This document shows positions 8,083 through 26,462 of a DNA stretch of 64,000 nt, piece after piece (the first letter of the stretch is position 1; each line of letters begins with the position of its first letter). The translations under genes and the position numbers were made by a program. The notes under the pieces are model-generated. The model did not search any database, was not told where the DNA came from, and saw only the letters and a program-made list of their open reading frames with translations. The stretch is from Verrucomicrobiota bacterium (GTDB lineage Bacteria; Verrucomicrobiota; Verrucomicrobiia; Opitutales; Seribacteraceae): assembly GCA_028343845.1 (NCBI GenBank), contig JAOLZO010000001.1:1-64000 (forward strand). Direction: 5' to 3'.

Positions 8083-8088
8083 AAGGGG

Positions 8089-8778
8089 CTAGTCTTGGTC
8101 GTTCGAGTCCATGGGCTTGAGACGTCCGTCAGCCAAAAGGAGCGTACGGTCGCAAGACTTTGCCAATTCGAGGTTGTGCGTCACAAGGATGAGGCTTTGC
8201 TCCCTTTTGCGGCAGAGCCCAAAGAGCAAGTCCATGATTTCCCGACCAGTCTTTTGATCGAGATTGCCGGATGGTTCGTCGGCCAGAATCAGATCCGGTT
8301 CGCTTACCATGGCCCGAGCGAGGGCAACGCGCTGGCATTCGCCGCCCGAGAGTTGCGATGGGAAATGGGCAAGGCGGTTGGATAGCCCAACTTGCTTGAG
8401 GGCCATTCTGGCTGGCTCGGCGAAGTTTCTTGATCCTTGTAGTTCCAGAGGGACTCCGACGTTTTCGACCGCGGTCAAGTTGCTCATGAGGTGGTATTGT
8501 TGGAATACGATCCCTAGGTTTTGCGAGCGAAACTTGCTCAGTTGGTCCTGACTCAGTTTGGCGAGATCTTCACCATTGACTTCGACTGTGCCGCTTTCGG
8601 GGTGATCCAGCCCGGCAAGCAAGGAGAGAAGGGTTGATTTCCCGCTCCCGCTTTGGCCGAGAATGGAAATGATTTCTCCTTGCTGAACCGTGAGATCAAG
8701 GCGGTTGAGAACCTCGATCCGTTGCGTTCCTTGATGAAAGGACTTGGAGATTTGCTTGAGTCGTAAGAGTGGATTCAT
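8089..8778 (-). CDS. ABC transporter ATP-binding protein, LolD/YbbA type
   Basis: A 229-residue ABC ATPase with Walker [10 protein letters not shown] (about 41-49), Q-loop VFQQYH, signature [14 protein letters not shown], Walker [13 protein letters not shown] and switch His VTHN. The sequence SGNLD after Walker B is typical of the LolD/MacB/YbbA branch, which pairs with FtsX-like permeases. The gene sits between a TesA-like esterase (9 bases upstream) and the YbbP-like permease (6 bases downstream), so the three are surely cotranscribed. There is no clear Shine-Dalgarno site before the ATG. Confidence 0.93.
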
Positions 8779-8787
8779 TGCGGTTGA

Positions 8788-9492
8788 TCAGTCGAGGGCG
8801 GACACAAGGCTTTCGTAAACGGTTTGGCAGAGAGCTTGGTGTCCCAGAGGATTGGGGTGTATGCGGTCGGGTAGATTCATCTCCGGGTTTCCACCGACTC
8901 CTTTCAACAGGAATGGGATGAATGGAATCTGGTGGTCTTTTGCTAATTGAGCAAAGGCCTGAGAAAAGGAATGGGCGTAGTCTTCGCCATAATTGGGGGG
9001 GATCTTCATGCCGGCAAGCATAGTTGGGATTTGGTTTTTTCTGGCCGCATGGAGGATTCGGTCGATGTTTTTCTTAATTTCCTTAACCGGGATCCCGCGC
9101 AACCCGTCGTTTCCTCCAAGAGCTAGGAGTAGATAATCAGGTTTTGCCTTGAGGAACCACTCGACCCGGGAAACCCCGCCACTGGTTGTAGCTCCGCTGA
9201 TTCCCCCGTTCACGACCTTGTAGCGCAGTTTGGTCCGGGGGCTCAGTTCCGCGTTAAGCTTTTCCTCCAAAAGGCTCGGATAGGCTTCTTCCGCCGAAAC
9301 CCCGAACCCTTCGGTGAGGGAATCACCGAGGATCAAAATACGGAAGGATGGATCGGCATCCTCTGTGGGTTTCGGATTCTCATGCCCTGATTTCTCCACA
9401 CCGGGATCGGTGCATGAATTGGCCAATCCAAGGAAACCGATCATGAAAAATGAAAGGGAAATCCGGAAGGATGTAGAGGTACGGTTTGTCAT
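8788..9492 (-). CDS. GDSL lipase/esterase, TesA-like
   Basis: A 234-residue SGNH hydrolase, probably a periplasmic lysophospholipase, thioesterase or arylesterase. Block I is ILGDSLTEGFGV with the nucleophile Ser, block III is LGGNDGLRG, and block V is DRIHPNPLGHQ with the catalytic Asp and His. The ATG at 9492 gives a hydrophobic leader ending FLGLANSC, so a lipid-modified Cys is possible although the box is not perfect. An upstream TTG at 9534 would put 14 polar residues ahead of the leader and is less likely. In E. coli tesA faces away from ybbA-ybbP; here all three share one direction and probably one transcript. Confidence 0.88.
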   Translation of the reverse strand: MTNRTSTSFRISLSFFMIGFLGLANSCTDPGVEKSGHENPKPTEDADPSFRILILGDSLTEGFGVSAEEAYPSLLEEKLNAELSPRTKLRYKVVNGGISGATTSGGVSRVEWFLKAKPDYLLLALGGNDGLRGIPVKEIKKNIDRILHAARKNQIPTMLAGMKIPPNYGEDYAHSFSQAFAQLAKDHQIPFIPFLLKGVGGNPEMNLPDRIHPNPLGHQALCQTVYESLVSALD

Positions 9493-9572
9493 TAAAGGAA
9501 AATACCGATTTATTGTATTCGCGTTCTTAGGCAACGAAGAACGATCTATTCTCCGCTTTTAAAACTAAAGTC

Positions 9573-9995
9573 ATGACTTATCTTCTGGAACTTCTCAACG
9601 AGCATGCTCTTGCTATCGATTTTGCCATGTTCGTGGTTATATGGCTTGTCCAGTTAATCGTCTACCCGGTTTTTCGTTATGTCGATGAAAGTCGTTTTGC
9701 TACCTGGCATCAGGGGTATTGCAATAAAATCAGTTTCTTCGTCCTTCCTTTGATGTTCGCTCAGTTGATCGAAGCGGCTAGCGCCTGTTTTTTCGAGGGA
9801 GGTGTTCTTGATTGGAGCAAAATGGGTGCAGTGCTGGGCGCATGGATCGTGACGTTTTTCGTTTCTGCGCCATGCCATCGAAGATTGTCTCAATCCGGAC
9901 AGGATCAGGATGTGATTGGTCACCTTATTTTTACCAATTGGATGAGAACCTTACTTTGGTCGGGTGTGCTCGTGATCTCATTTTTCAAATACTGA
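9573..9995 (+). CDS. Small four-helix membrane protein
   Basis: A 140-residue integral membrane protein with about four hydrophobic segments (near 14-34, 50-70, 82-100 and 120-138). Conserved-looking features are IVYPVFRYVDESRFATWHQ (30-48), PCHRRLSQ (about 99-106) and NWMRTLLW (120-127). I recall similar NWIRT-ending membrane proteins in several phyla, none with a known role. It is divergent from the tesA-like gene and overlaps the next small gene by one base (TGATG), so the two are translationally linked. Confidence 0.7.
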   Translation: MTYLLELLNEHALAIDFAMFVVIWLVQLIVYPVFRYVDESRFATWHQGYCNKISFFVLPLMFAQLIEAASACFFEGGVLDWSKMGAVLGAWIVTFFVSAPCHRRLSQSGQDQDVIGHLIFTNWMRTLLWSGVLVISFFKY

Positions 9996-14485: not shown

Positions 14486-15151
14486 TCAATTCGGCTCTTT
14501 GGGTTCTTCCTGCGGAGCAGAAGAGGGTGGACTCTTTGGCGGGAAGCATGCGCTTTTGCATTTCCGAAAGAGTGACAGAAAGAACAGGAAGAAATGAAGG
14601 CAAGTGGGCAGGGCGGCGGAAACCCCCATGATCAGGCCGAAGTAAATGTTCTTCACGTTTTCCCTCCCGGTCGGATCCTGCAATGCCTGAACGGCCCGGT
14701 GGGTGTACTTGGATCCTCTCTGCGCGAATTGCTCAGGTACGCTTTCCCATAAACTGATCAGCCATCCTCCGAAGGTAAAGACGAAGAGAACCCAAAGAGT
14801 GGCAAGGATGGCGATGACAAGGTCGAGGGAAAGATGAAAGACGTATTCCGAAGTTTTGGTGGATGCGAGGGCTCTGCGGATGATCCAGATCGTGATGAAG
14901 AATGAAAGGCTGTCGAACAGGGCTCCCAATATGCCCACCGGGATCTGAAGCTTGACGTAGTGGGAGGCTTCATGGGTTTGCATATAGTAGGGGAATGCGG
15001 TGTAGATGGCCCACCAATAGCATGCTATGTTGAGTACGATGAAAAAAAGGAAGAGCAGAGGGAAGAAGACAAAGACGGACCCCCTCTTTCTTTCATAGAC
15101 GTCCAATACCTGATGAAGAGCGTCTCGCCAAGTTGCGATGACTCCTTTCAT
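14486..15151 (-). CDS. Membrane protein of unknown function
   Basis: A 221-residue inner-membrane protein with about four hydrophobic segments (about 25-48, 74-92, 108-130 and 170-192). It ends in a proline-, serine- and glutamate-rich cytoplasmic tail (PPKSPPSSAPQEEPKEPN). I recognise no family motif. An AGGA lies about 9 bases before the ATG. It sits 28 bases after the Gfo/Idh gene and 42 bases before the isomerase gene, so it is part of the same operon. Confidence 0.7.
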   Translation of the reverse strand: MKGVIATWRDALHQVLDVYERKRGSVFVFFPLLFLFFIVLNIACYWWAIYTAFPYYMQTHEASHYVKLQIPVGILGALFDSLSFFITIWIIRRALASTKTSEYVFHLSLDLVIAILATLWVLFVFTFGGWLISLWESVPEQFAQRGSKYTHRAVQALQDPTGRENVKNIYFGLIMGVSAALPTCLHFFLFFLSLFRKCKSACFPPKSPPSSAPQEEPKEPN

Positions 15152-15179: not shown

Positions 15180-16136
15180 TCAGAGGGAGACGTGTCTTTG
15201 CTCTTCGACGGACTGCTCGCAAGCTTCGATGATTTTCATGCACGTAATCGCGTCATTCAACGTGGATAGAGGTTGTTCGCCTTTCCCGATTACTTCCTCG
15301 AGAAAATGCTGCCCCATCGAACGGATGGTATAGGGATAGGCGGAATAAGTTTGGGAGTGAACGACGGCAGGCGTATTCTCAACCCAGTCACGATAGCTGT
15401 AGCGGGTTGCTCCCTTGGTTCCGATCACCTTGATCATGAATGTCCACGGGTCACCCGCATGGTCGTCCGATGCAAAGCTTGCGCACAAGTGTGAAAGAGA
15501 ATTGTTCTGCATTTGCAAGGTCACCATGGCGAGGTTTTCCTGGGGGACACTTCCGTCATTGATGGTCGCTTTCATGCAAGATGCCAGTTTGGGAGCACCT
15601 GCCAGATAGAGGGTGCAGTATGCATGGTGCGTAAGAATTTGCCGGATTACCCCAGGGTACCTGGAGGCCACTTCTTCGGGATGATGAATGTTGTAGAGGA
15701 CGTAAATTGACACGAGGTCTCCCAGTTTGCCGCTCTCGATCAGATCCTTGGCCCGCATTACGGAGGGTTCGTAAATATAGTTGTGTACGGGAGCGACTTG
15801 GACGCCTTGTCTCTCGGCCGCCTCTTTGATTTCCTCAATCTCATCAATGGTGACTGCGGTCGGTTTTTCCACCAGGACGTGTTTGCCTGCCTCTATGGCT
15901 TGCATGGCATAGGAATGGTGGGTTTCCATGTTGGTAAGGATGTAGACGACGTCCACCGCATCGATCAATTCCTCCGCACTATCGAAGACCTTGGTCCCGA
16001 AGAGCTCGGCTTTTTCCTCGGCCTTGGAACGCGTCCGGTTCCATATGCCCGTCAATTCGGCGTTTGCCGAAGCATTTACGCCTTCTCCATGCAGGTACGC
16101 AATATCTCCTGCTCCAATGAAACCTACTTTGATCAT
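15180..16136 (-). CDS. Gfo/Idh/MocA oxidoreductase
   Basis: A 318-residue NAD(P)-dependent dehydrogenase of the Gfo/Idh/MocA family. The Rossmann motif is GFIGAGDIAYLHG (5-17) and the family EKP motif is VLVEKPTAVT (about 89-98). The C-terminal half carries the alpha/beta substrate domain, with HNYIYEP and LTHHAYCTLYLAG in place of the usual catalytic H-x-x-D region. The enzyme probably oxidises or epimerises a sugar or cyclitol in the sulfatase operon. A promoter-like element lies just upstream, and it is divergent from ydbH. Confidence 0.92.
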   Translation of the reverse strand: MIKVGFIGAGDIAYLHGEGVNASANAELTGIWNRTRSKAEEKAELFGTKVFDSAEELIDAVDVVYILTNMETHHSYAMQAIEAGKHVLVEKPTAVTIDEIEEIKEAAERQGVQVAPVHNYIYEPSVMRAKDLIESGKLGDLVSIYVLYNIHHPEEVASRYPGVIRQILTHHAYCTLYLAGAPKLASCMKATINDGSVPQENLAMVTLQMQNNSLSHLCASFASDDHAGDPWTFMIKVIGTKGATRYSYRDWVENTPAVVHSQTYSAYPYTIRSMGQHFLEEVIGKGEQPLSTLNDAITCMKIIEACEQSVEEQRHVSL

Positions 16137-16144
16137 GTCTTGAG

Positions 16145-16173
16145 TTTATCTACTGAATACACCTTTTTTTCAA
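16145..16173 (-). promoter_or_regulatory. Promoter-like element before the Gfo/Idh operon
   Basis: On the minus strand TTGAAA (16168-16173, 5/6 to consensus) and GATAAA (16145-16150, 4/6) are spaced 17 bases apart. The minus-10-like box is 8 bases from the ATG at 16136, again implying a leader of only a few bases. Confidence 0.35.
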
Positions 16174-16251
16174 GTGTAACCAATGAAATTAGACTTTTGG
16201 CTTTCCAAGAAGGCTGAAGTTGCCATCTTTGCATCCACACTTGTTTAACCA

Positions 16252-18528
16252 ATGACTAGTTTCTGGAAAAAACTTAGAACCAAAAGAGTTCTGCTGACCT
16301 TTTTGATCGCCTCAGTCCTGATCATATTTCTTGTTTGGGTTTCCCTACCTTTTCTTTTGAACTGGGGGCTTTCCAAAATGGCCCGGGAATCGGGGTTTTC
16401 CGAGTTCGATGCGGAAGTGGAGCAAATTGATCCTTGGGGCACCCGCATTTCGAAGATCCAAATGCACAAGAAGCAGCAGATGAGCCTTGCTGTCGAACAG
16501 GTCAATCTGGTTTATGCGCCCGCATCCGTTGCCCAAGGCAAACTTGATGCCGTTTCCATGACCGGGCTTGAGTTGGATTTTCAGGCGGATGCCGAAACTT
16601 CTGCCGATCGCCCTGAAACCGATTCCCCTGAAAGTATGGAAGAGACATTGGCGCGATTTCTAGAGGCTCCTGATGTAACTCATTTGCGAATTCGAGACTC
16701 TAAGCTGAACGTGAACTGGAAGAAGCAAGGTTATCCGGTGGATTTTACGCTCAAGGGGGATTTTCATAATCAAATCGGAAGATTGATTCTGGATGGATTC
16801 CTTTCCGGTTTCCCATTCCGGTCGAAAGTCGATCTCGCGAGGGATGAAGGAAAAACCTACCTTACTGGAGAAGTCATTTTCCCGGATTTGAGCAAATCCA
16901 CCGATTTGATTGAATCGATCGATTCTTTAGGGCAACCGATTTCCGAAAGCTTGTCCCTGAAGGAAGGGGAGGTCGGATTGATGGGGTCGGCACGGGTTGA
17001 TGGTGATTCGTTCAAGGATCTTTTTCTGGAGCTTAATGCAAGCGCATTGAACTTGGAAGCGTCCGGATATGACCTGAACGTTTCCGAGGCGGTGTTGTTT
17101 CTGACACCTGAAACAATGGAAGAATGGAGCGCGAATTTTTATGCAAACTTGGGTTTTGACAATCAATTGCTGGCTAGGGGGCTGAAGGTCAGCGTCAAAG
17201 CTGAAGGTCCTGCTTACGAGTTAAGCGGATCGGTGAGCCAGTTGAAAACAACGGGCGATCTTCCGGTCTTGGAAATAACGGGGCTGCGCTTGCCTATACT
17301 CGATATCACCTTGCCGTTTGAAATTCCAATCGGACTGGAGAAGAAAATTTTCTTTGACGAGGTCTCTTACGACAACGGCTCGTTCACCATGATGGAAGGT
17401 AACGTTTCGGTCGAGGTGCCTGAAGAAGGTACGCTCGTCTCGCTCCTCCTGAGTCCGAGTGACGCTTCATTCGGAGAGATCGGCTTCGTCGGCTTTTCCT
17501 ACGAGGGACTGCTCGATTGGGAGGAGTTGCCCAAGATCTCGCGTAAGCAGGTTGTTACGGGAAGGCGTATCATGCTCGGGCTCGATGCGCTCCTTGAAAA
17601 CCTCGAACTTGCTTTCCGAATGGAAAGTATGGAGCGCATTCTCTTGGATATGCTTGCTTTCGATGCGAGTGGAGTATCCTATGAGCTCGACCCTGCGAAC
17701 CTTTTGGTCAAGGTGTCCCAGGATAATCCTGAGTCCCTGGTATTTGAATTCCGGGGTTCCACCTTTGGCTTTCCCGGTCAGGATATCCTGATTGAGGGAA
17801 TAAAGGGAGAAATTGAACTTGCTTCGATTGAACCTTTGGCGACCAAGGGTTCCCAAACGATTTCCTTTGACCGAATTGCGCTGGGGGATATGGAAACCGG
17901 AAAGGGGAGCTTTTCCTTTCGGCTTGAACCTGACGGGACAATCATTGTCGAGCGCGCCCAGGCAGGTTTGTGGGGAGGTGAAGTCGGACTGTTGGAAACC
18001 ACTTTTAATATGTATGGGGACGATTTCCGTTTGAATACGAGGGTTTCCGCCATCAATGGACAGCGGGTTGCCGATTTGCTTGCAAAAGAGGATATCAACA
18101 TTGACGGAAATTTTTCCGGAGACATCACTTTCTCGAACGAGGGAGGAAAATGGGACTTTTCAAATGGTCTGGTTCTTATGGATCCGTCGCCAAACGCCAG
18201 GCTTCGGTACAAATCCGAATCAGTCGTGCTCAACAGCTTGAAAAAGGGCAGCAAGGAATATGAGGAGATGAAATTGACGAATGAGGCAATGGAGAACTTG
18301 TCCCTTGAGACGATGCGGATTTTATTCAAGGCATTTGACGGCAAGCGCGAAGTAGTGATTTCCGTCCGGGGAAAGTCGGAAGTCGGGAATCGGGTCATCC
18401 ACCTGAACAACAACTTGAATTTCATTGCGGGCATCCGCCAACTAGTCGGCGCTTATTTTGACTTTAGCAACTTGGGGATCGACTTGGGTAACTTCGGGGT
18501 TGACCTGGAAAACTTCGACATCGACTGA
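16252..18528 (+). CDS. ydbH: YdbH-like intermembrane bridge protein
   Basis: A 758-residue protein anchored by one N-terminal helix (about 13-33), followed by long beta-rich sequence with the amphipathic repeats of AsmA-like proteins. The C-terminal 180 residues (DGNFSGDITFSNEGGKW, LRYKSESV, then VVISVRGKSEVGNRVIHLNNN) match the YdbH dicarboxylate-transport-named domain. In E. coli YdbH is one of three large AsmA-like proteins (with TamB and YhdP) that carry phospholipid toward the outer membrane, and it works with the lipoprotein YnbE. The next two genes here are ynbE-like and ydbL-like, so the call is firm. It heads a same-strand run that reaches lpxB. Confidence 0.85.
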   Translation: MTSFWKKLRTKRVLLTFLIASVLIIFLVWVSLPFLLNWGLSKMARESGFSEFDAEVEQIDPWGTRISKIQMHKKQQMSLAVEQVNLVYAPASVAQGKLDAVSMTGLELDFQADAETSADRPETDSPESMEETLARFLEAPDVTHLRIRDSKLNVNWKKQGYPVDFTLKGDFHNQIGRLILDGFLSGFPFRSKVDLARDEGKTYLTGEVIFPDLSKSTDLIESIDSLGQPISESLSLKEGEVGLMGSARVDGDSFKDLFLELNASALNLEASGYDLNVSEAVLFLTPETMEEWSANFYANLGFDNQLLARGLKVSVKAEGPAYELSGSVSQLKTTGDLPVLEITGLRLPILDITLPFEIPIGLEKKIFFDEVSYDNGSFTMMEGNVSVEVPEEGTLVSLLLSPSDASFGEIGFVGFSYEGLLDWEELPKISRKQVVTGRRIMLGLDALLENLELAFRMESMERILLDMLAFDASGVSYELDPANLLVKVSQDNPESLVFEFRGSTFGFPGQDILIEGIKGEIELASIEPLATKGSQTISFDRIALGDMETGKGSFSFRLEPDGTIIVERAQAGLWGGEVGLLETTFNMYGDDFRLNTRVSAINGQRVADLLAKEDINIDGNFSGDITFSNEGGKWDFSNGLVLMDPSPNARLRYKSESVVLNSLKKGSKEYEEMKLTNEAMENLSLETMRILFKAFDGKREVVISVRGKSEVGNRVIHLNNNLNFIAGIRQLVGAYFDFSNLGIDLGNFGVDLENFDID

Positions 18529-18616
18529 ATTCCCCCCCCCTCATTCCAAACTTCTTCTTCCAAATATTTTCAATACTCGGTTGCAAGTGGGCTCAAATTG
18601 GGCTTACTTTGTATTC

Positions 18617-18781
18617 ATGAACTATTTGCTTAGGATTTTCTCGGTTTTAACCCTTGTCGGGTTGTTTGGTTGTACTGCAATCAAGACTGAACATCATATC
18701 ACTCTGGATCATACCATAACCATAAAGATCGAAAAGGAAGTGGACGATTTCCTTGACGATCTCTACGAAGACGAAGAATAA
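18617..18781 (+). CDS. ynbE: YnbE-like outer-membrane lipoprotein
   Basis: A 54-residue lipoprotein. Residues 1-18 form the signal peptide with the lipobox LFGC (lipidated C19). The mature part contains ITIKIEKEVDDFL, like the IKVDKDVEAL segment of E. coli YnbE, and an acidic end. YnbE stacks on the C-terminus of YdbH to complete the bridge in the known system. The ATG at 18617 is chosen because it starts the signal peptide directly; an open frame extends upstream but has no sensible leader. It lies 88 bases after ydbH and 45 before ydbL. Confidence 0.82.
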   Translation: MNYLLRIFSVLTLVGLFGCTAIKTEHHITLDHTITIKIEKEVDDFLDDLYEDEE

Positions 18782-18826
18782 ACCGAACCAGCGAACAATA
18801 ACCTGATACCTAAAGATTGATTTGTC

Positions 18827-19198
18827 ATGAAAACCCAATTTCCACTCATCCTTTTATTCTCCCTAAGTTTTTTGCTCGTGCCTTTTGTCCAAGCTGACTC
18901 AAGCTTTGCGAGCACGATGAAGGAGCGTCTGCCCGAGGTAATCAAAGCCAAGGGCGAAGGCTCCGTGGGCGAGGGAGTTGATGGCCTTCTTCACATTCGA
19001 GCCGAGGAGGCATCCGCGGAGTTGGAGAAGATGGTAGCCTCGGAAAACAAGGATCGTGAGGCTCTCTTTGCAAACCTTGCCAAAAAGACAAAAGGTTCCA
19101 CCGCTGAGGCGGCCAAAATCTTCGCCAAGGCAATGATTGGAAAGGGTAAGAAAGGGCATTGGTTCCGAAGTTCTAAGGGAGCTTGGAAACAAAAGTAG
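18827..19198 (+). CDS. ydbL: YdbL-like periplasmic protein (DUF1318)
   Basis: A 123-residue protein with a signal peptide (1-23, cut near VQADS). The mature sequence keeps the YdbL pattern: GSVGEGVDGLLHI, then NKDREALFANLAKKT, and a final GHWFRSSKGAWKQK. In E. coli ydbL lies in the ydbH-ynbE-ydbL operon, and its product is thought to tune assembly of the YdbH-YnbE bridge. Gene order and spacing here match that operon. The 3' end overlaps the next reading frame by 16 bases. Confidence 0.82.
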   Translation: MKTQFPLILLFSLSFLLVPFVQADSSFASTMKERLPEVIKAKGEGSVGEGVDGLLHIRAEEASAELEKMVASENKDREALFANLAKKTKGSTAEAAKIFAKAMIGKGKKGHWFRSSKGAWKQK

Positions 19199-19731
19199 GA
19201 TATTTGCCAGGAGCAAGGCTGGTCCTTGCTTTTTGGATTTTGGTACTTTGTTCGTGCCAGCGAACCGAGCGGGTGCTTGAACATAATCAACCCGTGAAGG
19301 GGTTTGGGGGAATGGGCGACGACTCATTCCAATCTCTCTCCTTGAAAAGAAAGAACTTGGCCAAGGAAAAAAAGTACTTGGAAATGGAATTGCAGTGGCT
19401 CGTTCTTCGCCAAAAGCAGATTCAGGCAGAAATTGAATTAAGGCAGGCCCTGGAATTCGAGAATGCCCTTGCCCTCGAAATGGCTCGATATGGAGAGTTC
19501 GAAAAGAGGCTTCCTGGAGAAGAAGGATTTATTGATCCATCGCAAAGGAGAGCGTGGGAAACTCGGTTGCTCGGTCGGAAGCGTGAAAGTGATAAAGCCG
19601 CCGCCCGGGTGCGGTTGATCGCCCGTGACATGAAAGACTTGCTAGGGAAGGTGTCCCATCATGGTTTCATTCCGCCAACCAACCAATCAGAGAAGAGCAG
19701 TCAGCCTGTTTCCGATCCAGTCATTCCCTAG
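19183..19731 (+). CDS. Coiled-coil lipoprotein of the ydbHL operon
   Basis: A 182-residue protein if the TTG at 19183 is used, or 175 if a TTG at 19204 is used; the second lies just after GTAGGA and leaves a compact leader. The leader LVLAFWILVLCSC ends in a possible lipobox. From about residue 50 to 150 the protein is highly charged and helical (KRKNLAKEKKYLEMELQWL and so on), consistent with a coiled coil. The C-terminus is polar and disordered. I do not recognise the family. Its position between ydbL and the Lol-type genes suggests a periplasmic scaffold or chaperone role, which is inference. Confidence 0.65.
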   Translation: METKVGYLPGARLVLAFWILVLCSCQRTERVLEHNQPVKGFGGMGDDSFQSLSLKRKNLAKEKKYLEMELQWLVLRQKQIQAEIELRQALEFENALALEMARYGEFEKRLPGEEGFIDPSQRRAWETRLLGRKRESDKAAARVRLIARDMKDLLGKVSHHGFIPPTNQSEKSSQPVSDPVIP

Positions 19732-19776
19732 CTTTTTCGTTGTCCTATATTCGGGACTGAAGCAAAATGCGGGCGA

Positions 19777-20079
19777 ATGGAAATTGTCATCGAACGAATT
19801 CTAAGCCACCCGCTTCTCACTCTCGCCTTGGTTTTGTTGTGCATTCTCATGCTCTATGCCGTGCTCAAGAGACTGGTCAAGATGTTACTCTTTCTTGCAA
19901 TCGTGGGAGCCGCTTACTTCGGTTACGTGCAATTTCTTGAGGAAGATTATCCTTTGCCGGAATTTGACACGGGAGTTTTCGAGGGTTGGAAGGAAACCGT
20001 AGCCCCGCTGTTGCCCGATGACTGGAACGAAACTCTTTCTGATTTTAACGCAACGATGCCTGATGGCAACGGTACTTGA
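19777..20079 (+). CDS. Small two-helix membrane protein
   Basis: A 100-residue protein with a long hydrophobic hairpin (about 12-29 and 33-51) split by a short basic turn KRLVK. An acidic, aromatic C-terminal half follows (EEDYPLPEFDTGVFEGW, then DDWNETLSDFN). No family is recognised. It sits 45 bases after the coiled-coil lipoprotein and 48 before the permease in the same direction, so it belongs to the outer-membrane operon. It could be an accessory subunit of the ABC transporter. Confidence 0.6.
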   Translation: MEIVIERILSHPLLTLALVLLCILMLYAVLKRLVKMLLFLAIVGAAYFGYVQFLEEDYPLPEFDTGVFEGWKETVAPLLPDDWNETLSDFNATMPDGNGT

Positions 20080-20127
20080 TCGAATGAGCATTCATGGTTT
20101 GTTTTTCGGGGCTTCCAAAGTTGTGAC

Positions 20128-21741
20128 ATGAAGGTTCCCTGGCCGCTTTACTTGGCGTGGAAGCAACTGTTCCCTTCCCAGAGGAAGATGTCTTTCTTTT
20201 CTCTTTTGGCTATTGTCGGGGTGGCTCTCGGTGTGAACGTAATGATCGTGGTGATTGCTTTCATGCAAGGGTTTCAGAACAAATTCAGAAATGACATCAT
20301 CAATAACCAAGGCCACGCCAGGGCAGTTCCTTTGGCTCGGTATGCGGGTTGGAAGGAAATTCCAAAACTCATGCTGGATACCGAAGGAGTAAAAGCCGTT
20401 ACTCCTTATCTTCATGCGCAACTTCTTCTCCAAAGCGGAAACTATCACTCCATTCCCTTTGTCATTGGATTGAGACCGGAGGACGGAGATGAGGTTCTCC
20501 CCATAGGGGCTTTCCTCGAGCGGGGGATGACGAGGTTGCGGGCTGATGATGGGGAAGACGTAACGCCCTTGCCGACGATCGATGCCTTGGAGGATGAGGT
20601 TGTCTTTGTGAGTACTCAGGCGGCCAACCGATTGCGCGTTCGACCCGCTTCGGTTGTGCAAGTGTTTGAGGGGAACTCATCCCAGCGCAACCCTGCGTCA
20701 AGCGGAAGAGTGCGCGTTGCCCGGTTGGATCCATATGTTGAGACGGCGGAGTGGGAAATCCAATTCGATGGTCAAGGTTCTTGTGTCGCTCGTGAAAATA
20801 TTTCGGGGGATGAGTTCGCATGGGAATACGACAAGGGATCTTTGGATTTGGGCTTTGGGTATCCGGTGTTTGAAATTTCGAAAGGAGCGACTCCCTTCGC
20901 CGCCGGCGATCGATTCCTCTTTCAGGTATTCAAGGCGAACAAAATAGAAATCTATTCCCCGAGAATGATTGAGCAAGCGAAAGCGGATGAAATGGTTCCG
21001 CCCAAGGAAGTGCGGATCGGCGGTATCTTCGAGATGCCCTCTCAGGGATTTCAAATGGAAGCCTTGATAGGAACCATGCGATTTGTTGAAGATATGCGTG
21101 GAGAGGAGGGTGCTTGCGATGGCTTTTACTTGAAGTTTTCGGATTCGGTTGCCCGAAACGAAGGAAGCCTGAGGGCAAAGTGCCGGGAGTTGGAACTCCT
21201 TCTTGACGAGGATTGGGCGATTGTTCCTTGGTCCGTTGAAAATGCCTGGTTTTTCGAACTTCTCCAATTCGAGGAGACGCTGATGATCGTCATTATGGTT
21301 CCGATTGGCTTGGTGGCGGCCTTTGCCATTGCCATCGCGCTGATGACTACGGTTTTGAGGAAGATTAGGGAGATCGGTTTGCTAGTCGCGATGGGGGGGA
21401 GGCGTGTCTCCGTTGGCATGGTCTTCTGCCTGCAGGGATTTGTCATTGGTACGATCGGAGCCTTGGTGGGGTGTGGTTTGGCCATCCTTTTTATCCATTA
21501 CCGGGACGCGCTCATGACCTTTATCGTCGATCTGATCGTGGGGCAGGAAGGGCAGGTGGGGGTTACTCAATTTTACGACTTTCAAAGCTTGAGCATCGCT
21601 TATCCCTGGGAGTCTCCGGAAAGCATGTCGACCTTTCTTGTGTTCGCCCTTTTTGCCATAGGAGTTTCCACCATTGCCGGCTTGTTGCCTGCTTGGCGGG
21701 CGGCAAGGCTTAACCCTGCGGATGCGTTGAGGAATGAGTGA
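20128..21741 (+). CDS. Lipoprotein-release ABC permease, LolC/LolE type
   Basis: A 537-residue MacB/LolCE-type permease. It has an N-terminal helix (about 23-46, FFSLLAIVGVALGVNVMIVV) followed by a periplasmic domain of about 330 residues. Three C-terminal helices lie around 385-410, 435-460 and 505-525, and the protein ends in PAWRAARLNPADALRNE, the usual tail of this family. Only one permease is present rather than a LolC plus LolE pair, so a homodimer is likely. The start of the LolD gene lies inside its last codons (8-base overlap). In the known system LolCDE extracts lipoproteins from the inner membrane for outer-membrane delivery. Confidence 0.88.
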   Translation: MKVPWPLYLAWKQLFPSQRKMSFFSLLAIVGVALGVNVMIVVIAFMQGFQNKFRNDIINNQGHARAVPLARYAGWKEIPKLMLDTEGVKAVTPYLHAQLLLQSGNYHSIPFVIGLRPEDGDEVLPIGAFLERGMTRLRADDGEDVTPLPTIDALEDEVVFVSTQAANRLRVRPASVVQVFEGNSSQRNPASSGRVRVARLDPYVETAEWEIQFDGQGSCVARENISGDEFAWEYDKGSLDLGFGYPVFEISKGATPFAAGDRFLFQVFKANKIEIYSPRMIEQAKADEMVPPKEVRIGGIFEMPSQGFQMEALIGTMRFVEDMRGEEGACDGFYLKFSDSVARNEGSLRAKCRELELLLDEDWAIVPWSVENAWFFELLQFEETLMIVIMVPIGLVAAFAIAIALMTTVLRKIREIGLLVAMGGRRVSVGMVFCLQGFVIGTIGALVGCGLAILFIHYRDALMTFIVDLIVGQEGQVGVTQFYDFQSLSIAYPWESPESMSTFLVFALFAIGVSTIAGLLPAWRAARLNPADALRNE

Positions 21742-22432
21742 TCCCGGCCATACGATTGTTCTCGAAGCCCGAGGCTTGGCCAAAAGCTTTCAGCTTGGAG
21801 AGGCGAGCGTCGAGGTATTGTCCTGTGTGGACATTTCTCTGGAGGAGTCTTCATCCCTGAGTATTCAAGGAGAATCGGGTTGTGGTAAGACGACCTTGCT
21901 TAATTTGCTTGCCCGTTTGGAAATCGGAGATGCCGGGGAAATCTCTTGGGGCGGGCGGAAAATGATGGCGACCGATTCCTTCTCCTCCACCGAATCAATC
22001 CTCAGAACCAGATTCCTCGGAGTCGTTTATCAGGCTTATTACTTGATTCCCGAACTCAACGTATTGGAAAACGTGCTCATGGCTGCAAGGCTTGCCGGCG
22101 GACCCGATCAGGATTCGACCGACCGAGCCCGATCATTGCTATCCAAGATGGGGGTCGGGCAAAAAGAGAAGCAAGTGCCGTCGAAGTTGTCCGGAGGCGA
22201 ACGTCAGCGGGTGGCCATTGCCCGGGCATTGATCAATACACCGAAGGTTTTGCTCGCAGACGAACCGACGGGGAACCTGGACGAGCGGACCGGCGGGCAA
22301 GTGATGGATTTGCTCCTTAACGCCTGCGAGGAGGAGAATACCGGGTTGGTTTTGGTCACCCATAATGAGAGTTTCGCAAGGTCTGCAGATTCGAGAGTCA
22401 TTTTAAGCGAAGGGAAAACCCATCCGGGCTAA
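21734..22432 (+). CDS. lolD: Lipoprotein-release ABC ATPase, LolD type
   Basis: A 232-residue ABC ATPase with Walker A GESGCGKTT (about 45-53), Q-loop VYQAYYL, signature LSGGERQRVAIARA, Walker B LLADEPTGNLDE and switch VTHN. The TGNLD sequence after Walker B marks the LolD/MacB branch. The ATG overlaps the permease stop by 8 bases, so the two are made together. A second pair of this type lies at 5521-8778, and the two ATPases differ clearly in sequence. The lol assignment rests on family and on the outer-membrane context. Confidence 0.88.
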   Translation: MSDPGHTIVLEARGLAKSFQLGEASVEVLSCVDISLEESSSLSIQGESGCGKTTLLNLLARLEIGDAGEISWGGRKMMATDSFSSTESILRTRFLGVVYQAYYLIPELNVLENVLMAARLAGGPDQDSTDRARSLLSKMGVGQKEKQVPSKLSGGERQRVAIARALINTPKVLLADEPTGNLDERTGGQVMDLLLNACEEENTGLVLVTHNESFARSADSRVILSEGKTHPG

Positions 22433-22444
22433 ACCGGATAGTCA

Positions 22445-23380
22445 ATGGAACGTGAAATGAATAATACAATTAAATGCGGAGTCGCTGGCGTTGGCTACCT
22501 AGGCAAGCATCATGCGAGAATTTACAAATCCCTCGAAGGTTGTGACTTGGTCGGGGTTTACGAACCGAACGACGAGGCCGCTACCGGTATCTGCGAGGAA
22601 TATCAATGCCTCCGTTTTGACAGCTTGACTGAATTGGCCGATGCATGTGACGTCATTAGCGTAGTTTGTCCGACTGACAAGCACGCCGAGGTGGCCTTGC
22701 CCCTCATGGAGAAAGGATGTCATCTGCTGGTTGAGAAACCGCTTTGTGTTTCGGTGGCTGAGGCGGAATCCATGCTAGAACAGGCAAAGAAGTCAGGGAC
22801 GATCCTTCAGGTTGGCCATATCGAGCATTACAATCCCGTCATGGCCTTTTTGGAGGAACAAGTGGACTGTCCGAAGTACTTGACTGTTGAGAGGCTGGCG
22901 CCTTTTCAACCTCGAGGTACGGAAGTTGGGGTTGTGTTGGACTTGATGATTCACGATATCGGGATTGTCATGGCCTTGATTGCTTCCCCCATTCAGTCCG
23001 TTGATGCAATCGGAGTGCGGGTCCTTTCACCTACTGAAGACATTGCCAATGCTCGTCTTGTCTTTGAAAATGGATGCGTGGCCAATTTGAGCGCCAGCCG
23101 GGTCAGTGAGAAAAAGGCGAGGGAAATCAGGGTGTTTCAGGAAAGCGGGTATTTGTCCCTGGACTTCATGAACCAAAAGGGACACCTCATTCGAAAAAAC
23201 GAAGCTTCCTTGGAGAAAAGCGAGGTGCCAGTGGAGAAGGGGGAACCGCTCGCTCTCGAATTAGAGGCTTTTGTCGGATGCGTTCGCGAATCAAGTACCC
23301 CAAAGACGGATGGCGTTTTTGGGAAATCAGCCTTAGAAGTGGCCCTGTCCGTGACCAAGCAAATTCAATCGGCCTGGTGA
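22445..23380 (+). CDS. Gfo/Idh/MocA dehydrogenase next to lpxB, GnnA-like candidate
   Basis: A 311-residue dehydrogenase with the Rossmann motif GVAGVGYLGKHHARIY (about 11-26) and the EKP motif LLVEKPLCVS. The substrate-domain segments are VGHIEHYNPV and VVLDLMIHDIGIVMAL, where the Asp/His pair is the family catalytic region. It lies between lolD and lpxB, one base before lpxB. Gfo/Idh genes are known beside lpxB in several bacteria. In Leptospira and Acidithiobacillus the GnnA member oxidises UDP-GlcNAc at C3 so that GnnB can install an amino group for amide-linked lipid A. A GnnA role is inferred from this context; no gnnB is in the window. An in-frame ATG at 22457 is an alternative start. 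Confidence 0.85.
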   Translation: MEREMNNTIKCGVAGVGYLGKHHARIYKSLEGCDLVGVYEPNDEAATGICEEYQCLRFDSLTELADACDVISVVCPTDKHAEVALPLMEKGCHLLVEKPLCVSVAEAESMLEQAKKSGTILQVGHIEHYNPVMAFLEEQVDCPKYLTVERLAPFQPRGTEVGVVLDLMIHDIGIVMALIASPIQSVDAIGVRVLSPTEDIANARLVFENGCVANLSASRVSEKKAREIRVFQESGYLSLDFMNQKGHLIRKNEASLEKSEVPVEKGEPLALELEAFVGCVRESSTPKTDGVFGKSALEVALSVTKQIQSAW

Positions 23381-23381
23381 A

Positions 23382-24557
23382 TTGAAGAATCCCGAACCGT
23401 TTCCTTTCACTGAAATCGAGGAAGTCGATCTTTTGATCGTAGCCGGTGAAGCGTCCGGAGATGAGCATGCCTCCTTGTTGGCTAAGGATTTACTGGAAAG
23501 AGAGCCAGGCTTGTCCATTTCTGCCTTGGGCGGTCCCGGGCTTGAGGCGCAAGGAGCTTCCCTGCTCTTTAGCCTGGTAGATCATTCGGTCGTGGGGATT
23601 TTCGAAGTTTTGAAAAACTATGGCTTCTTCAAGAGCCTGTTTCGTCAGACTCTTGACTGGATAGAGGAAAAGAGACCCAAGGCTGTTCTTCTGGTCGATT
23701 ACCCGGGCTTCAACCTGAGATTGGCAACTGCCCTGAAGGAAAAGGGTCTTTCGGTCAAAGGAGGAGGCTCGATCAAAGTACTTCAGTACGTCAGTCCTCA
23801 GCTTTGGGCATGGAAACCAAAGAGGCGTTTCCTGATGGAAAAGGTTTTGGATGGATTGGCCGTCTTGTTTCCGTTCGAGCTCGATTGTTATCGTGACGTT
23901 GACTTGCCGGTTTCTTTCGTGGGGCATCCCTTTGCCCGTTCGGATTATCTTTCCCCCATTTCTTACGAAGCCTCGGGTCCCGTTGCCCTGCTTCCCGGAA
24001 GTCGGGTTCAACCGGTTCAGCGAATCTTGCCCTGCTTTTTGGATGCCTTCGATATTATGCTTCGAAGATTTCCTGATATTCACGGAGTGATTCCGGTTCC
24101 CGATTCGAAGATCCGGGCGGTTGTTGAGGAGTTGCTTGCCAACCGGAGGGAATCAAGGGACAGGCTTTCAATTCAGGATTGTCAATCAAGGTTTGAGGCC
24201 CGAGCCGCCTTGATGAGTTCAGGGACAATGTCACTTGCATGCGCCATCGCGGGGATTCCCGGAGCGGTTGCCTACCGCGCCCATCCATTGACTTACCTTC
24301 TTGGTCGTTTTTTGGTGAAGGTTCCCTACTTGGGCATGGCTAACCTGCTATTGCCGGAAAAGCCGCCCTATGAGGAGTTTTTGCAAGGAGAAGCAAACGG
24401 AAAGACACTTGCCTGCGCCATGGCTCCCTTTCTTGAGTCGGAAGGCAGTAGGGATCAATTCGAGGAATCGGCCTCTTTGCTTTCCGAGTCTTTGGCGCAG
24501 CCTGGCTCCTGCGGGTTGGCTGATTGGTTGATCAAAGAAGGTTGTTTGCTAGGTTGA
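23382..24557 (+). CDS. lpxB: Lipid-A-disaccharide synthase
   Basis: A 391-residue GT19 glycosyltransferase that joins UDP-diacylglucosamine and lipid X into the lipid A disaccharide at the inner membrane. Diagnostic blocks are VAGEASGDEHA (about 20-30), VVGIFEVLKNY, LVDYPGFNLRLA, KVLQYVSPQLWAWKPKR, FVGHPFARSDY, ALLPGSRVQPVQR, SSGTMSLACAIAG and LTYLLGRFLVKVPYLGMANLLLP. The start is a TTG one base after the preceding stop, so translation is probably coupled. The last 103 bases overlap the 3' end of hemA on the other strand. Presence of lpxB shows an LPS-bearing outer membrane. Confidence 0.94.
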   Translation: MKNPEPFPFTEIEEVDLLIVAGEASGDEHASLLAKDLLEREPGLSISALGGPGLEAQGASLLFSLVDHSVVGIFEVLKNYGFFKSLFRQTLDWIEEKRPKAVLLVDYPGFNLRLATALKEKGLSVKGGGSIKVLQYVSPQLWAWKPKRRFLMEKVLDGLAVLFPFELDCYRDVDLPVSFVGHPFARSDYLSPISYEASGPVALLPGSRVQPVQRILPCFLDAFDIMLRRFPDIHGVIPVPDSKIRAVVEELLANRRESRDRLSIQDCQSRFEARAALMSSGTMSLACAIAGIPGAVAYRAHPLTYLLGRFLVKVPYLGMANLLLPEKPPYEEFLQGEANGKTLACAMAPFLESEGSRDQFEESASLLSESLAQPGSCGLADWLIKEGCLLG

Positions 24558-25603
24558 TCGACCATTTGAGCCCAAAGCTTGAGGGCTCGGTTTGCAAGAG
24601 TTTCCCGGCATTGATCGACCTCAGCCATTCTTAGCTTGAGGTTTTCATTCGCGATGGCCGATACGTCATCCATGTTGTAGAGAAAAACGTTGTCGATCTT
24701 GGCCACTCGCTCATCGATGTTACGGGGTACCGAGGCATCGATGAGGAAGAGAGGCTTGGCTGGCCTTTTTTTCATCGAGTGCTTGACCTGATCAGCCGTA
24801 ATCATTCTTGTCCCACTCGAAGTCGAGGTGAGGATGACGTCGAATAAGTGGAGGGATTCTTGGAAACCATCGTATGCCATGGCGAACCCTCCGAATTTAT
24901 CAGCTAGCTCATCGGGTTTTCTTCGGCTCAAAGGACACCAATCGAAGGTTCTTCCGGTTACGGTTATCTCTTGGCATCCCCTTGATTGAAACGATTCCAT
25001 GGTGCTTTCGGCCACATCGCCGGCTCCTACGATGAGCAACCTGCAGTTTTCGACTTTGCCGAAAATTCTTCGAGCAAGGTCCGAGAGAACATTGCCCAAG
25101 TTCACCTGACCACGTGAAATGCCGGTGTTGGTCCTGGTCCATTTGGCGGTTTGAAAGCCCTTTTGGAATAAACGATTGAGGGTTTTTCCGGAAAGTTTTC
25201 GGTTGCAGGCATCTTCGTAGGCTTTCTTGACTTGGCCGAGAATCTCGGTCTCCCCGACCATTTGGGAGTCAATTCCCGAGGTTACCTCGAACAGATGACG
25301 AACCACTTCTTCTCCCTCTCGCTGGTAGAAGTGACGGTCCATAAAGCCTTTTTCCAGTTTTTGAAAATTGCTCAGGTAGTTTCGCACTTCATCTATCGGG
25401 GAGGTTCCGTTGCCTACGCCATAGATCTCCGTACGGTTGCAAGTGTTAAGCAAGAGGCATTCCTTCATTCCGGGGATGGATCGGAGCCCTTTGTAGAAGG
25501 GCTCGATTTTGTCCGCCGGCAGGCTGATCAATTCGCGTTCGACCAACGACGCAACCTTATGAGAGCTGCCAAGAAGGAAGAGCTTTGGATCTTCAGTTGG
25601 CAT
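24455..25603 (-). CDS. hemA: Glutamyl-tRNA reductase
   Basis: A 382-residue enzyme that makes glutamate-1-semialdehyde, the first committed step of C5-pathway haem synthesis. The catalytic Cys is C55 in LLNTCNRTEIYG, with SSHKVASL near the start, GIDSQMVGETEILGQVK, the NADPH-binding LLIVGAGDVAEST, and the dimer-arm region FLYNMDDVSAIANEN. The ATG at 25603 is chosen because it opens directly on the first beta strand; an open frame runs 55 codons further up through the neighbouring gene. The start overlaps the ccsA/hemX-like gene by 11 bases. The last 37 residues are polar and lie antisense to lpxB. Confidence 0.92.
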   Translation of the reverse strand: MPTEDPKLFLLGSSHKVASLVERELISLPADKIEPFYKGLRSIPGMKECLLLNTCNRTEIYGVGNGTSPIDEVRNYLSNFQKLEKGFMDRHFYQREGEEVVRHLFEVTSGIDSQMVGETEILGQVKKAYEDACNRKLSGKTLNRLFQKGFQTAKWTRTNTGISRGQVNLGNVLSDLARRIFGKVENCRLLIVGAGDVAESTMESFQSRGCQEITVTGRTFDWCPLSRRKPDELADKFGGFAMAYDGFQESLHLFDVILTSTSSGTRMITADQVKHSMKKRPAKPLFLIDASVPRNIDERVAKIDNVFLYNMDDVSAIANENLKLRMAEVDQCRETLANRALKLWAQMVDQPSKQPSLINQSANPQEPGCAKDSESKEADSSN

Positions 25604-26462
25604 CGTTGGTTTGAGTCGTGTCACCATCCTGCGCAGAGGGGGTACTGGACGAGCGAACGACCCCGAGTGATAAAATGGCAACGATAAAGAGACCGATGGA
25701 GACTTTGGCAAACTTTTGGCCAAAAAGCTTTTGACGGAAGTGAAGATACCACAAACTGCAATAGGCAAGCCAGAGTGCTATGGTGAGCCCCACTTTGGAA
25801 GCGCTTAATGAATCAGGTGAGCGCGTCCAGTCCAGGGATCCTACTACGATCGAGCAAGTCAGGAAAACCGAACCTACGAGCAAAAGCCTGGAACCGGCGA
25901 TTTCTAATTGCTGTATGGCGGGGAGGAAAGAGGCAAGCTCGCCGGTACGCTTATTTTGCAAGGCTTTGCGCTGAATCAGGTACATTACGCTGACGGTGGC
26001 AAGTAGCGCGAAGATTCCATAGCTGAAGATTGCCATCGATGCATGAAGTTCAACCCAGTGGTTGGAAAAAATCCCGTCGTAACCTTCCTGTTCCCAATAG
26101 GGCGTGTCGAAGGATGGCAAAATAAGGGTGGCTATGCCCCCAAAGGATGCCAAGCCTGCGGAAAAAGAACCGAGTAGATTCAGACGAAAGAGTACCCGGA
26201 TGATAAGATAGCCAAGTACGAGAGACCAAAGGATAAATTGAATGCGTTCCATCCCGTTTCCAAGAGGGCAACCTTTGACCAATTGCCCACGTAGGGCGAG
26301 TGCTTGAGTCTGGGCAAGGAAACCGGCAATGATAATGAGAAGCGGGGCGGTCGATGAAAGGAGTTTACTCGATTTGGAGACCAAAGCCAACCCGCTGACC
26401 AAACCGATCCCATAAAGGATGGTTGCCAACCAGAACAAGTCACGGCTTTCTTCCAAGTCCAT
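25593..26462 (-). CDS. CcsA/HemX-like cytochrome c assembly membrane protein
   Basis: A 289-residue integral membrane protein with about eight hydrophobic segments. Family landmarks are CPLGNGMERIQFILWSLVLG (about 65-84), where CcsA and HemX usually have P-x-x-x-x-E-x-x-x-F, and HWVELHASMAIFSYGIFAL (about 134-152) with a conserved His. Bacillus carries hemX between hemA and hemC, and the adjacency to hemA here is similar. It may help haem handling or control HemA level. The WWD haem motif of full CcsA proteins is not visible, so HemX-like is the better name. Confidence 0.8.
   Translation of the reverse strand: MDLEESRDLFWLATILYGIGLVSGLALVSKSSKLLSSTAPLLIIIAGFLAQTQALALRGQLVKGCPLGNGMERIQFILWSLVLGYLIIRVLFRLNLLGSFSAGLASFGGIATLILPSFDTPYWEQEGYDGIFSNHWVELHASMAIFSYGIFALLATVSVMYLIQRKALQNKRTGELASFLPAIQQLEIAGSRLLLVGSVFLTCSIVVGSLDWTRSPDSLSASKVGLTIALWLAYCSLWYLHFRQKLFGQKFAKVSIGLFIVAILSLGVVRSSSTPSAQDGDTTQTNDAN

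Follow-up and report, generated by a model that had tools for sequence, protein, structure and literature searches.

How diderm bacteria keep the supply of phospholipids, lipoproteins and lipid A to the outer membrane in balance is an open question, and current knowledge comes mostly from Escherichia coli. The ydbH, ynbE and ydbL genes of E. coli lie together in this order, and YdbL is a helper of YdbH-YnbE. For lipoprotein export, LolF-LolD is given as the most common architecture among the Gracilicutes in a passage of PMC11784454, and the Hook of E. coli LolC is described as the essential element for docking of LolA, and the Pad is placed at residues 163, 181 and 182, in a section of PMC10865981. 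Excerpts of two further reports (PMC8593681, PMC12977461) state that YhdP, TamB and YdbH of E. coli are redundant, yet jointly essential for lipid homeostasis of the outer membrane, and that YdbH interacts with YnbE. The 3-dehydrogenation of UDP-N-acetylglucosamine (UDP-GlcNAc) is, according to parts of PMC5644692 and PMC8036547, the GnnA step towards lipid A containing 2,3-diamino-2,3-dideoxyglucose (GlcN3N). Here we describe a block of nine genes that joins members of all these systems within a 64,000-nucleotide stretch of DNA (positions 1 to 64,000 of the forward strand of contig JAOLZO010000001.1, assembly GCA_028343845.1; hereafter the window) from a Verrucomicrobiota bacterium of the Opitutales family Seribacteraceae. 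With a probability of about 0.6, we read this block as a co-regulated outer-membrane lipid operon of one Opitutales family, in which a LolDF-type exporter has acquired family-specific accessories, namely a small membrane protein (P5) and a beta domain within the permease.

The nine genes occupy positions 16252-24557 of the plus strand, in the order ydbH, ynbE, ydbL, P4, P5, a lolF-like permease gene, lolD, a Gfo/Idh gene (gfo) and lpxB, and are separated from stop to next start by 88, 45, -16, 45, 48, -8, 12 and 1 nucleotides. A first-pass annotation, made from the letters of the window alone, had proposed these identities and the same-strand arrangement; all nine reading frames were recovered at its coordinates, and all products other than YnbE, P4 and P5 exceeded their Pfam cut-offs. 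The first gene (16252-18528) encodes a 758-residue YdbH-like bridge protein of the AsmA superfamily (PF11739, E-value 6.6e-17, 62.1 bits against a cut-off of 26.3) with one N-terminal hydrophobic stretch at residues 8-41. It is followed by a 54-residue YnbE-like lipoprotein (18617-18781), placed by its position between ydbH and ydbL, and by a YdbL-like DUF1318 protein (18827-19198; PF07027, 1.3e-20, 74.1 bits against 27) with a signal-like N-terminus. P4 (19183-19731) and P5 (19777-20079) precede the 537-residue LolF-like (LolC/E-type) permease (20128-21741; FtsX Pfam family, 35.8 bits against 25.5; TIGR02212 lolCE, 9.1e-49) and the LolD-like ATPase (21734-22432; ABC_tran, 107.9 bits against 25; TIGR02211, 9.9e-63), the genes of which overlap by 8 nucleotides. 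A Gfo/Idh/MocA oxidoreductase, probably of a GnnA-like subfamily (22445-23380; GFO_IDH_MocA, 99.2 bits against 24; NF040723, 1.8e-65), and the lipid-A-disaccharide synthase LpxB (23382-24557; PF02684, 240.1 bits against 22.6; TIGR00215, 197.2 bits, over the cut-off of 190.25) complete the block.

The first three genes correspond in kind and order to those of E. coli, YdbH and DUF1318 scoring over the Pfam cut-offs and YnbE below its own, but are joined here to lolF-lolD-gfo-lpxB with P4 and P5 between, and the best Pfam stretch of YdbH spans only residues 500-722. The N-terminal signal of the YnbE-like protein ends in LFGC, which is not a strict lipobox; a YnbE-like gene was found between ydbH and ydbL in the family loci and in two separate trios outside the family (L114 and L115). 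No TamB scored over its cut-off in the 37 genomes of the host family, in which one match lay below it (G019), and only four of 20 genomes from other families passed; for both reasons we did not take the absence of TamB to show that YdbH acts as the only bridge.

Conservation of the block was assessed in 57 genomes (that of the window and relatives), comprising 37 of the host family and 20 of other Opitutales families, one per family. Of these, 50 had a match to lpxB and 25 one to the YdbH family (E <= 0.001); the loci around lpxB matches and stray ydbH matches were searched with the window proteins. P4 aside, the order from ydbH to lpxB was intact on one contig in 24 of the 37 family genomes, including one in which lpxB is split into two frames (G023) and one in which it runs into the contig end (G032). 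Another seven agreed with the order as far as their contigs extend, and six assemblies, 57-89% complete, yielded neither lpxB nor ydbH. On rechecking, order and strand were fixed in all 35 family loci of relatives, as far as each reaches, and the same held for 34 of 34 loci of records named as Opitutia, Opitutae, Opitutales or Verrucomicrobia bacteria, a set that overlaps with the former. The order is kept down to approximately 25% YdbH identity. The exact order, for which the first-pass annotation had suggested a conservation check, is thus kept in close relatives; the block is real, goes beyond a chance arrangement, is old within its family, and is probably one operon. A single genome (G017) carried two complete, divergent copies on different contigs (L060 and L108), for which a mixed bin is the likeliest cause.

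Outside the family the block is broken up. The lpxB gene was present in 19 of the 20 genomes from other families (and not found in one), and the complete nine-gene block was seen in none. The cluster lolF-lolD-gfo-lpxB was recovered in six, preceded in five of these by a lysS-type gene (checked against Pfam in L062 only), and variants included lolD-gfo-lpxB running into a contig end (1/20), the cluster without gfo (1/20), gfo and lpxB only (5/20) and lpxB without these genes (6/20). In the two loci from other families that were read around ydbH, L114 and L115, ydbH-ynbE-ydbL formed a separate trio. A larger sample of 273 genomes of the order, 36 listed as family members and 237 others, contained DUF1318 in 29 and 77 genomes, respectively. 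After omission of 15 of the 77 for which no permease place was listed, 62 non-family genomes remained with both places listed, and in all 62 the ydbL-type gene was not seen within 30 kb of a lolF-type gene; the smallest distance among them was 31.9 kb, and in 47 the two genes lay on different contigs, of which a few might adjoin across a gap. The first-pass annotation had described these functions as usually scattered, which is too simple, given that lolF-lolD-gfo-lpxB is clustered in 6/20 other families. It had also taken a break-up of the block in close relatives as refuting a working unit; the order is kept inside the family and broken outside it. As the trio and the lolF cluster are separate outside the family, the likeliest reading of the block is that two older units were joined at the level of the family, and the joining of bridge and exporter/lipid A genes as a trait of one family rather than a general arrangement. 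No description of such a block was found among open-licence papers on Verrucomicrobi combined with YdbH, or with lolC, lolD and lpxB.

Upstream of the block lies a divergent minus-strand gene (15180-16136), and the far end of the block is overlapped by a convergent hemA (24455-25768, minus strand); a single transcript of about 8.3 kb is therefore the simplest layout, and a plausible one given the gene arrangement. The likely promoter site is the divergent head region between the minus-strand neighbour and ydbH (16137-16251), in which alignment of 10 family loci, one overlapping only in part, revealed short conserved stretches. A consensus scan found no consensus promoter in this region, and its sole plus-strand promoter-like site lay inside gfo. 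Promoter-like sites were rarer than in shuffled sequence (3 versus 5.9) and terminator-like sites occurred at the shuffled rate (14 versus 12.4); such a scan is evidence neither for nor against starts or stops within the block.

The best model for the permease was TIGR02212 lolCE at 166.5 bits (next 93.4), which is below the naming cut-off of 362.45, and the protein is for this reason named only LolF-like. Its closest solved sequences are LolF (9w37 first), and a structure model (predicted local distance difference test score, pLDDT, 73.2; predicted template modelling score, pTM, 0.57) gave LolE/LolC as the best Foldseek matches, 9rld first (9rld_E, 7.4e-22). The adjoining ATPase matched TIGR02211 at 211.6 bits, the best of 194 families, followed by YbbA at 193.5 (cut-off 307.75). 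The pair shares with LolDF exporters the lolF-lolD arrangement and the single permease, together with the likeness to LolF by sequence and to LolE/LolC by fold, and differs from them in its sub-threshold lolCE score, in the P5 gene upstream and in approximately 110 additional residues, with a beta domain not seen in relatives of the same order. A permease of some other FtsX/MacB type, exporting lipids rather than lipoproteins and making the block a lipid-export operon, would fit with LolF and LolD lying below the lolCE and LolD cut-offs, the lead of only 18 bits that LolD has over YbbA, and a large periplasmic insertion that might serve another substrate. This is highly improbable in our view, given the best models, solved sequences and folds just listed, the separate YbbA-YbbP-like set at 5521-8778, and the lolF-lolD pair itself, whose permease was, in 29 of the 30 family genomes that gave any match at E <= 1e-30, the only one (3/30 are cut by contig ends, and G017 has two copies of the block).

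The family permease has 537 residues, as against the form of about 410 residues in other families. The additional residues, some 110 in number, lie between the positions matching LolF 137 and 187 and are absent from the short homologues aligned; alignments with these homologues and with LolF, together with the structure model, delimit a family-specific beta domain of about 100 residues in the periplasmic part of the permease, at residues 172-270 (20641-20937). Among the matches listed for the order, the full-length permease model was matched only by family members (27 of 30 such genomes, the other three being partial). Those from other families all started at model position 251-271; most of their frames had about 410-460 residues, and four long ones of 504-568 residues (G179, G052, G126 and G247) lacked any match to the insert part. 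When modelled alone, the insert formed seven strands with high confidence (pLDDT of 89.6 and pTM of 0.82), and its 21 top Foldseek matches were FlgL, hook-filament junction chains and Wzc (probability 0.98-1.00; TM-score normalised to the query, 0.46-0.57). This likeness is weak (best E-value 0.003, none at 0.001), and here the domain is inserted in an ATP-binding cassette (ABC) permease. Neither Pfam (over cut-off) nor the PDB sequences (at an E-value better than 1.5) gave a match to the insert, and searches of 387 genomes of the phylum returned the window's own genome and one borderline match only. The latter (G340, 2.4e-4) is a 242-residue hydrophobic frame in a 3.2 kb locus where no LolF-type permease was recognised by eye, and was judged to be due to chance.

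In P5, a basic loop separates two hydrophobic helices, and there are a conserved YPLP motif and an acidic tail (the final 45 residues carry a net charge of -10); the positive-inside rule would place both ends in the periplasm. It has no Pfam family over cut-off: the window protein stayed below it, and the best matches of 15 members, reaching 7e-5 and falling on a viral membrane protein (5/15) or DUF4131 (8/15), were judged chance results of the hydrophobic helices. P5 was found in 29 of the 36 listed family genomes and in none of the 237 others of the order, and was present in every locus in which ydbL and lolF are both readable (29/29 named loci and 25/25 of relatives). P4 likewise has no Pfam family over cut-off. 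It is predicted to be a lipoprotein with an LCSC lipobox, after the Cys of which 157 residues form a long proline-free stretch, a PGEEGF-type turn and a second proline-free stretch, which we read as a putative helical hairpin. P4 occurred in 24 of the 36 listed family genomes, whereas the 237 others gave a single borderline match (G157, 9.5e-4, in a 494-residue frame), which was also attributed to chance. Seven family genomes lack P4 with the rest of the block intact, and in seven named loci of this kind the ydbL-P5 spacing is 98-119 nucleotides. These seven genomes make up one side of a branch of the permease tree with support of 100/99, so P4 was probably lost once. At the place of P4, locus L196 carries a lipoprotein-like frame (9103-9708) with a long charged stretch and no match to the P4 profile; L196 also stands out on the permease tree, where its branch is much longer than any other.

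Both small proteins are under protein-level selection. The ratio of nonsynonymous to synonymous substitution rates (dN/dS) in four close pairs was 0.06-0.09 for P5, 0.22-0.38 for P4 and 0.07-0.11 for the permease, ranges that leave out a fifth, distant pair (window/L168) with dS above 1.5 or undefined for eight of the nine genes. These values bear on the view that chance brought two ordinary housekeeping units together and slow rearrangement in one lineage has preserved the arrangement, P4 and P5 being unrelated orphans at the junction and shared transcription the only link. Such an origin would accord with the conservation of flanking genes (hemA then ccs downstream of lpxB wherever a family locus extends far enough, and the divergent Gfo gene upstream of ydbH in many), with the loss of P4 from one clade of seven genomes in which the rest is undisturbed, and with the placement of all family traits on one branch. 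It is nonetheless unlikely, if well short of negligible, because P5 is as constrained as LolF and present in every readable locus, the permease differs by a whole domain on that same branch, and the order persists to the low YdbH identity noted above.

Directly after the insert, the permease has a loop whose counterpart in the alignment, in an exact register that is tentative, is the Hook of E. coli LolC (residues 167-179). Invariant family residues P278, M280, E288, P291 and P292 are kept in this Hook-like loop, which suggests that a LolA-like docking may be retained. LolA itself (PF03548 and PF19574) was detected in 0/37 family genomes, and the two models match only two and four of all 57; we rejected this absence as a sign of a LolA-free route, as both models fail in most of the order. 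One LolA-model match (L116) lies beside a frame resembling a ketosynthase by eye.

Two related possibilities concern a coupling of exporter and bridge. In the first, P4 and/or P5 would tie LolF-LolD, via the beta domain, to YdbH-YnbE, so that lipoproteins or lipids pass directly along the bridge. The two modules do have the family-specific parts between them, the docking segment as aligned adjoins the beta domain, which bears a weak likeness to envelope-assembly domains, and LolA went undetected in the family. We nevertheless consider such a complex very unlikely: P4 is dispensable, the invariant Hook-like loop argues for retained LolA-like docking, the LolA models fail across most of the order anyway, and the distances of P5 do not follow those of YdbH. 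The last point comes from residual correlations of plain p-distances across 24 of 25 taxa (P4 not included), in which P5 gave 0.46 with the LolF core, 0.36 with the insert, 0.08 with YdbH and -0.21 with YdbL. In the second, which we would put forward only as a long shot, LolF with its FlgL/Wzc-like beta domain and P5/P4 would form a trans-envelope station that hands over lipoproteins without, or besides, free LolA and is coupled to the YdbH-YnbE bridge.

Under the preferred reading of a co-regulated operon with an accessory-bearing LolDF-type exporter, an ancestor of the family would have placed the ydbH-ynbE-ydbL unit upstream of an older lolF-lolD-gfo-lpxB cluster, and the products would act in parallel. 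YdbH with YnbE, helped by YdbL, would carry phospholipids outward, from inner membrane to outer membrane; LolF-LolD would extract outer-membrane lipoproteins, expected to include YnbE and P4; and LpxB and the Gfo enzyme, through the 3-keto sugar of UDP-GlcNAc, would make lipid A. These pathway functions are those suggested by the protein families. P5 and the beta domain may serve as accessories of the exporter, a reading prompted by the confinement of both to the family, the position of P5 directly before lolF and that of the domain beside the LolA dock; the partnership of P5 with LolF is accordingly a putative one. P4 would be an outer-membrane lipoprotein cargo or a helper that can be lost. 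The suggestion of the first-pass annotation that both small proteins may be new components of the bridge or of the ABC machine stays hypothetical. Since YnbE and P4 are predicted lipoproteins, they are likely cargo of the adjoining exporter, which would offer a simple reason for co-regulation. A lineage with three supply routes in one block and an exporter altered next to its chaperone dock would provide a natural test of the need for matched dosage, and P5 and the beta domain are small, concrete and testable candidates for new LolDF accessories.

The lipid A genes of the block extend beyond lpxB to the Gfo enzyme, which scored 221.4 bits against NF040723, the archaeal UDP-GlcNAc 3-dehydrogenase model (cut-off 450; next model 84 bits), and whose closest PDB chain was 7bvj (198.3 bits; next 62.5). 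It probably belongs to the UDP-GlcNAc 3-dehydrogenase (GnnA-like) subfamily, judging from these matches. As in gnnA-gnnB/lpx arrangements, the GnnA-like enzyme stands beside an lpx gene, here lpxB, and does so likewise in other families of the order; the locus differs in that no gnnB aminotransferase gene adjoins and that lpxA lies elsewhere. The lpxB gene is the only copy found in the window's genome, which is 63.7% complete.

Several observations weigh against the operon reading. LolF, LolD and Gfo all score below NCBIfam naming cut-offs, and YnbE reached only 14.7 bits with PF13617, below the Pfam cut-off of 25.8, though it stands in the expected place after ydbH. The terminator-like site with the longest stem (10 pairs, plus strand, 19209-19233) falls at the start of P4 and might weaken the case for a single transcript. 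No GnnB-type aminotransferase was found in the block or in the 10 of 14 frames scanned of one lpxA region (L218) of the window's own genome, and the GnnA step is consequently tentative. The distances of P5 also correlate with those of hemA, a flanking gene (0.39), and no pair had a higher residual correlation than YdbH with LolD (0.58), a value that would favour the bridge-exporter complex; the correlation between P5 and the permease is therefore a weak test. Finally, as the family-specific traits all lie on one branch, their co-occurrence amounts to one event and cannot alone prove function.

Two LpxA-type genes were present in eight of 10 family genomes searched, the second being 28-33% identical (L218, L220 and L221 for one set of loci; L216 and L217 for the other). 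The first follows a gene of LpxC/FabZ size, and the second lies near infC, a 3-dehydroquinate synthase gene and an SRP (signal recognition particle)-receptor-like GTPase gene; only the second was found in the window's own incomplete genome. Elsewhere in the window, an 853-residue FtsX/MacB-type permease, an ABC ATPase and a GDSL esterase are encoded in a row on the minus strand (5521-9534), a set that we take to resemble ybbP-ybbA-tesA of E. coli. The minus-strand gene before the block (15180-16136) encodes a second Gfo/Idh enzyme, which many family loci share at 79-95% identity and in the same divergent orientation to ydbH, and which is better conserved than most genes of the block. Next to it, a 221-residue membrane protein without a Pfam match (14486-15151, minus strand) is 69-86% identical and likewise adjoins the block in many family loci.

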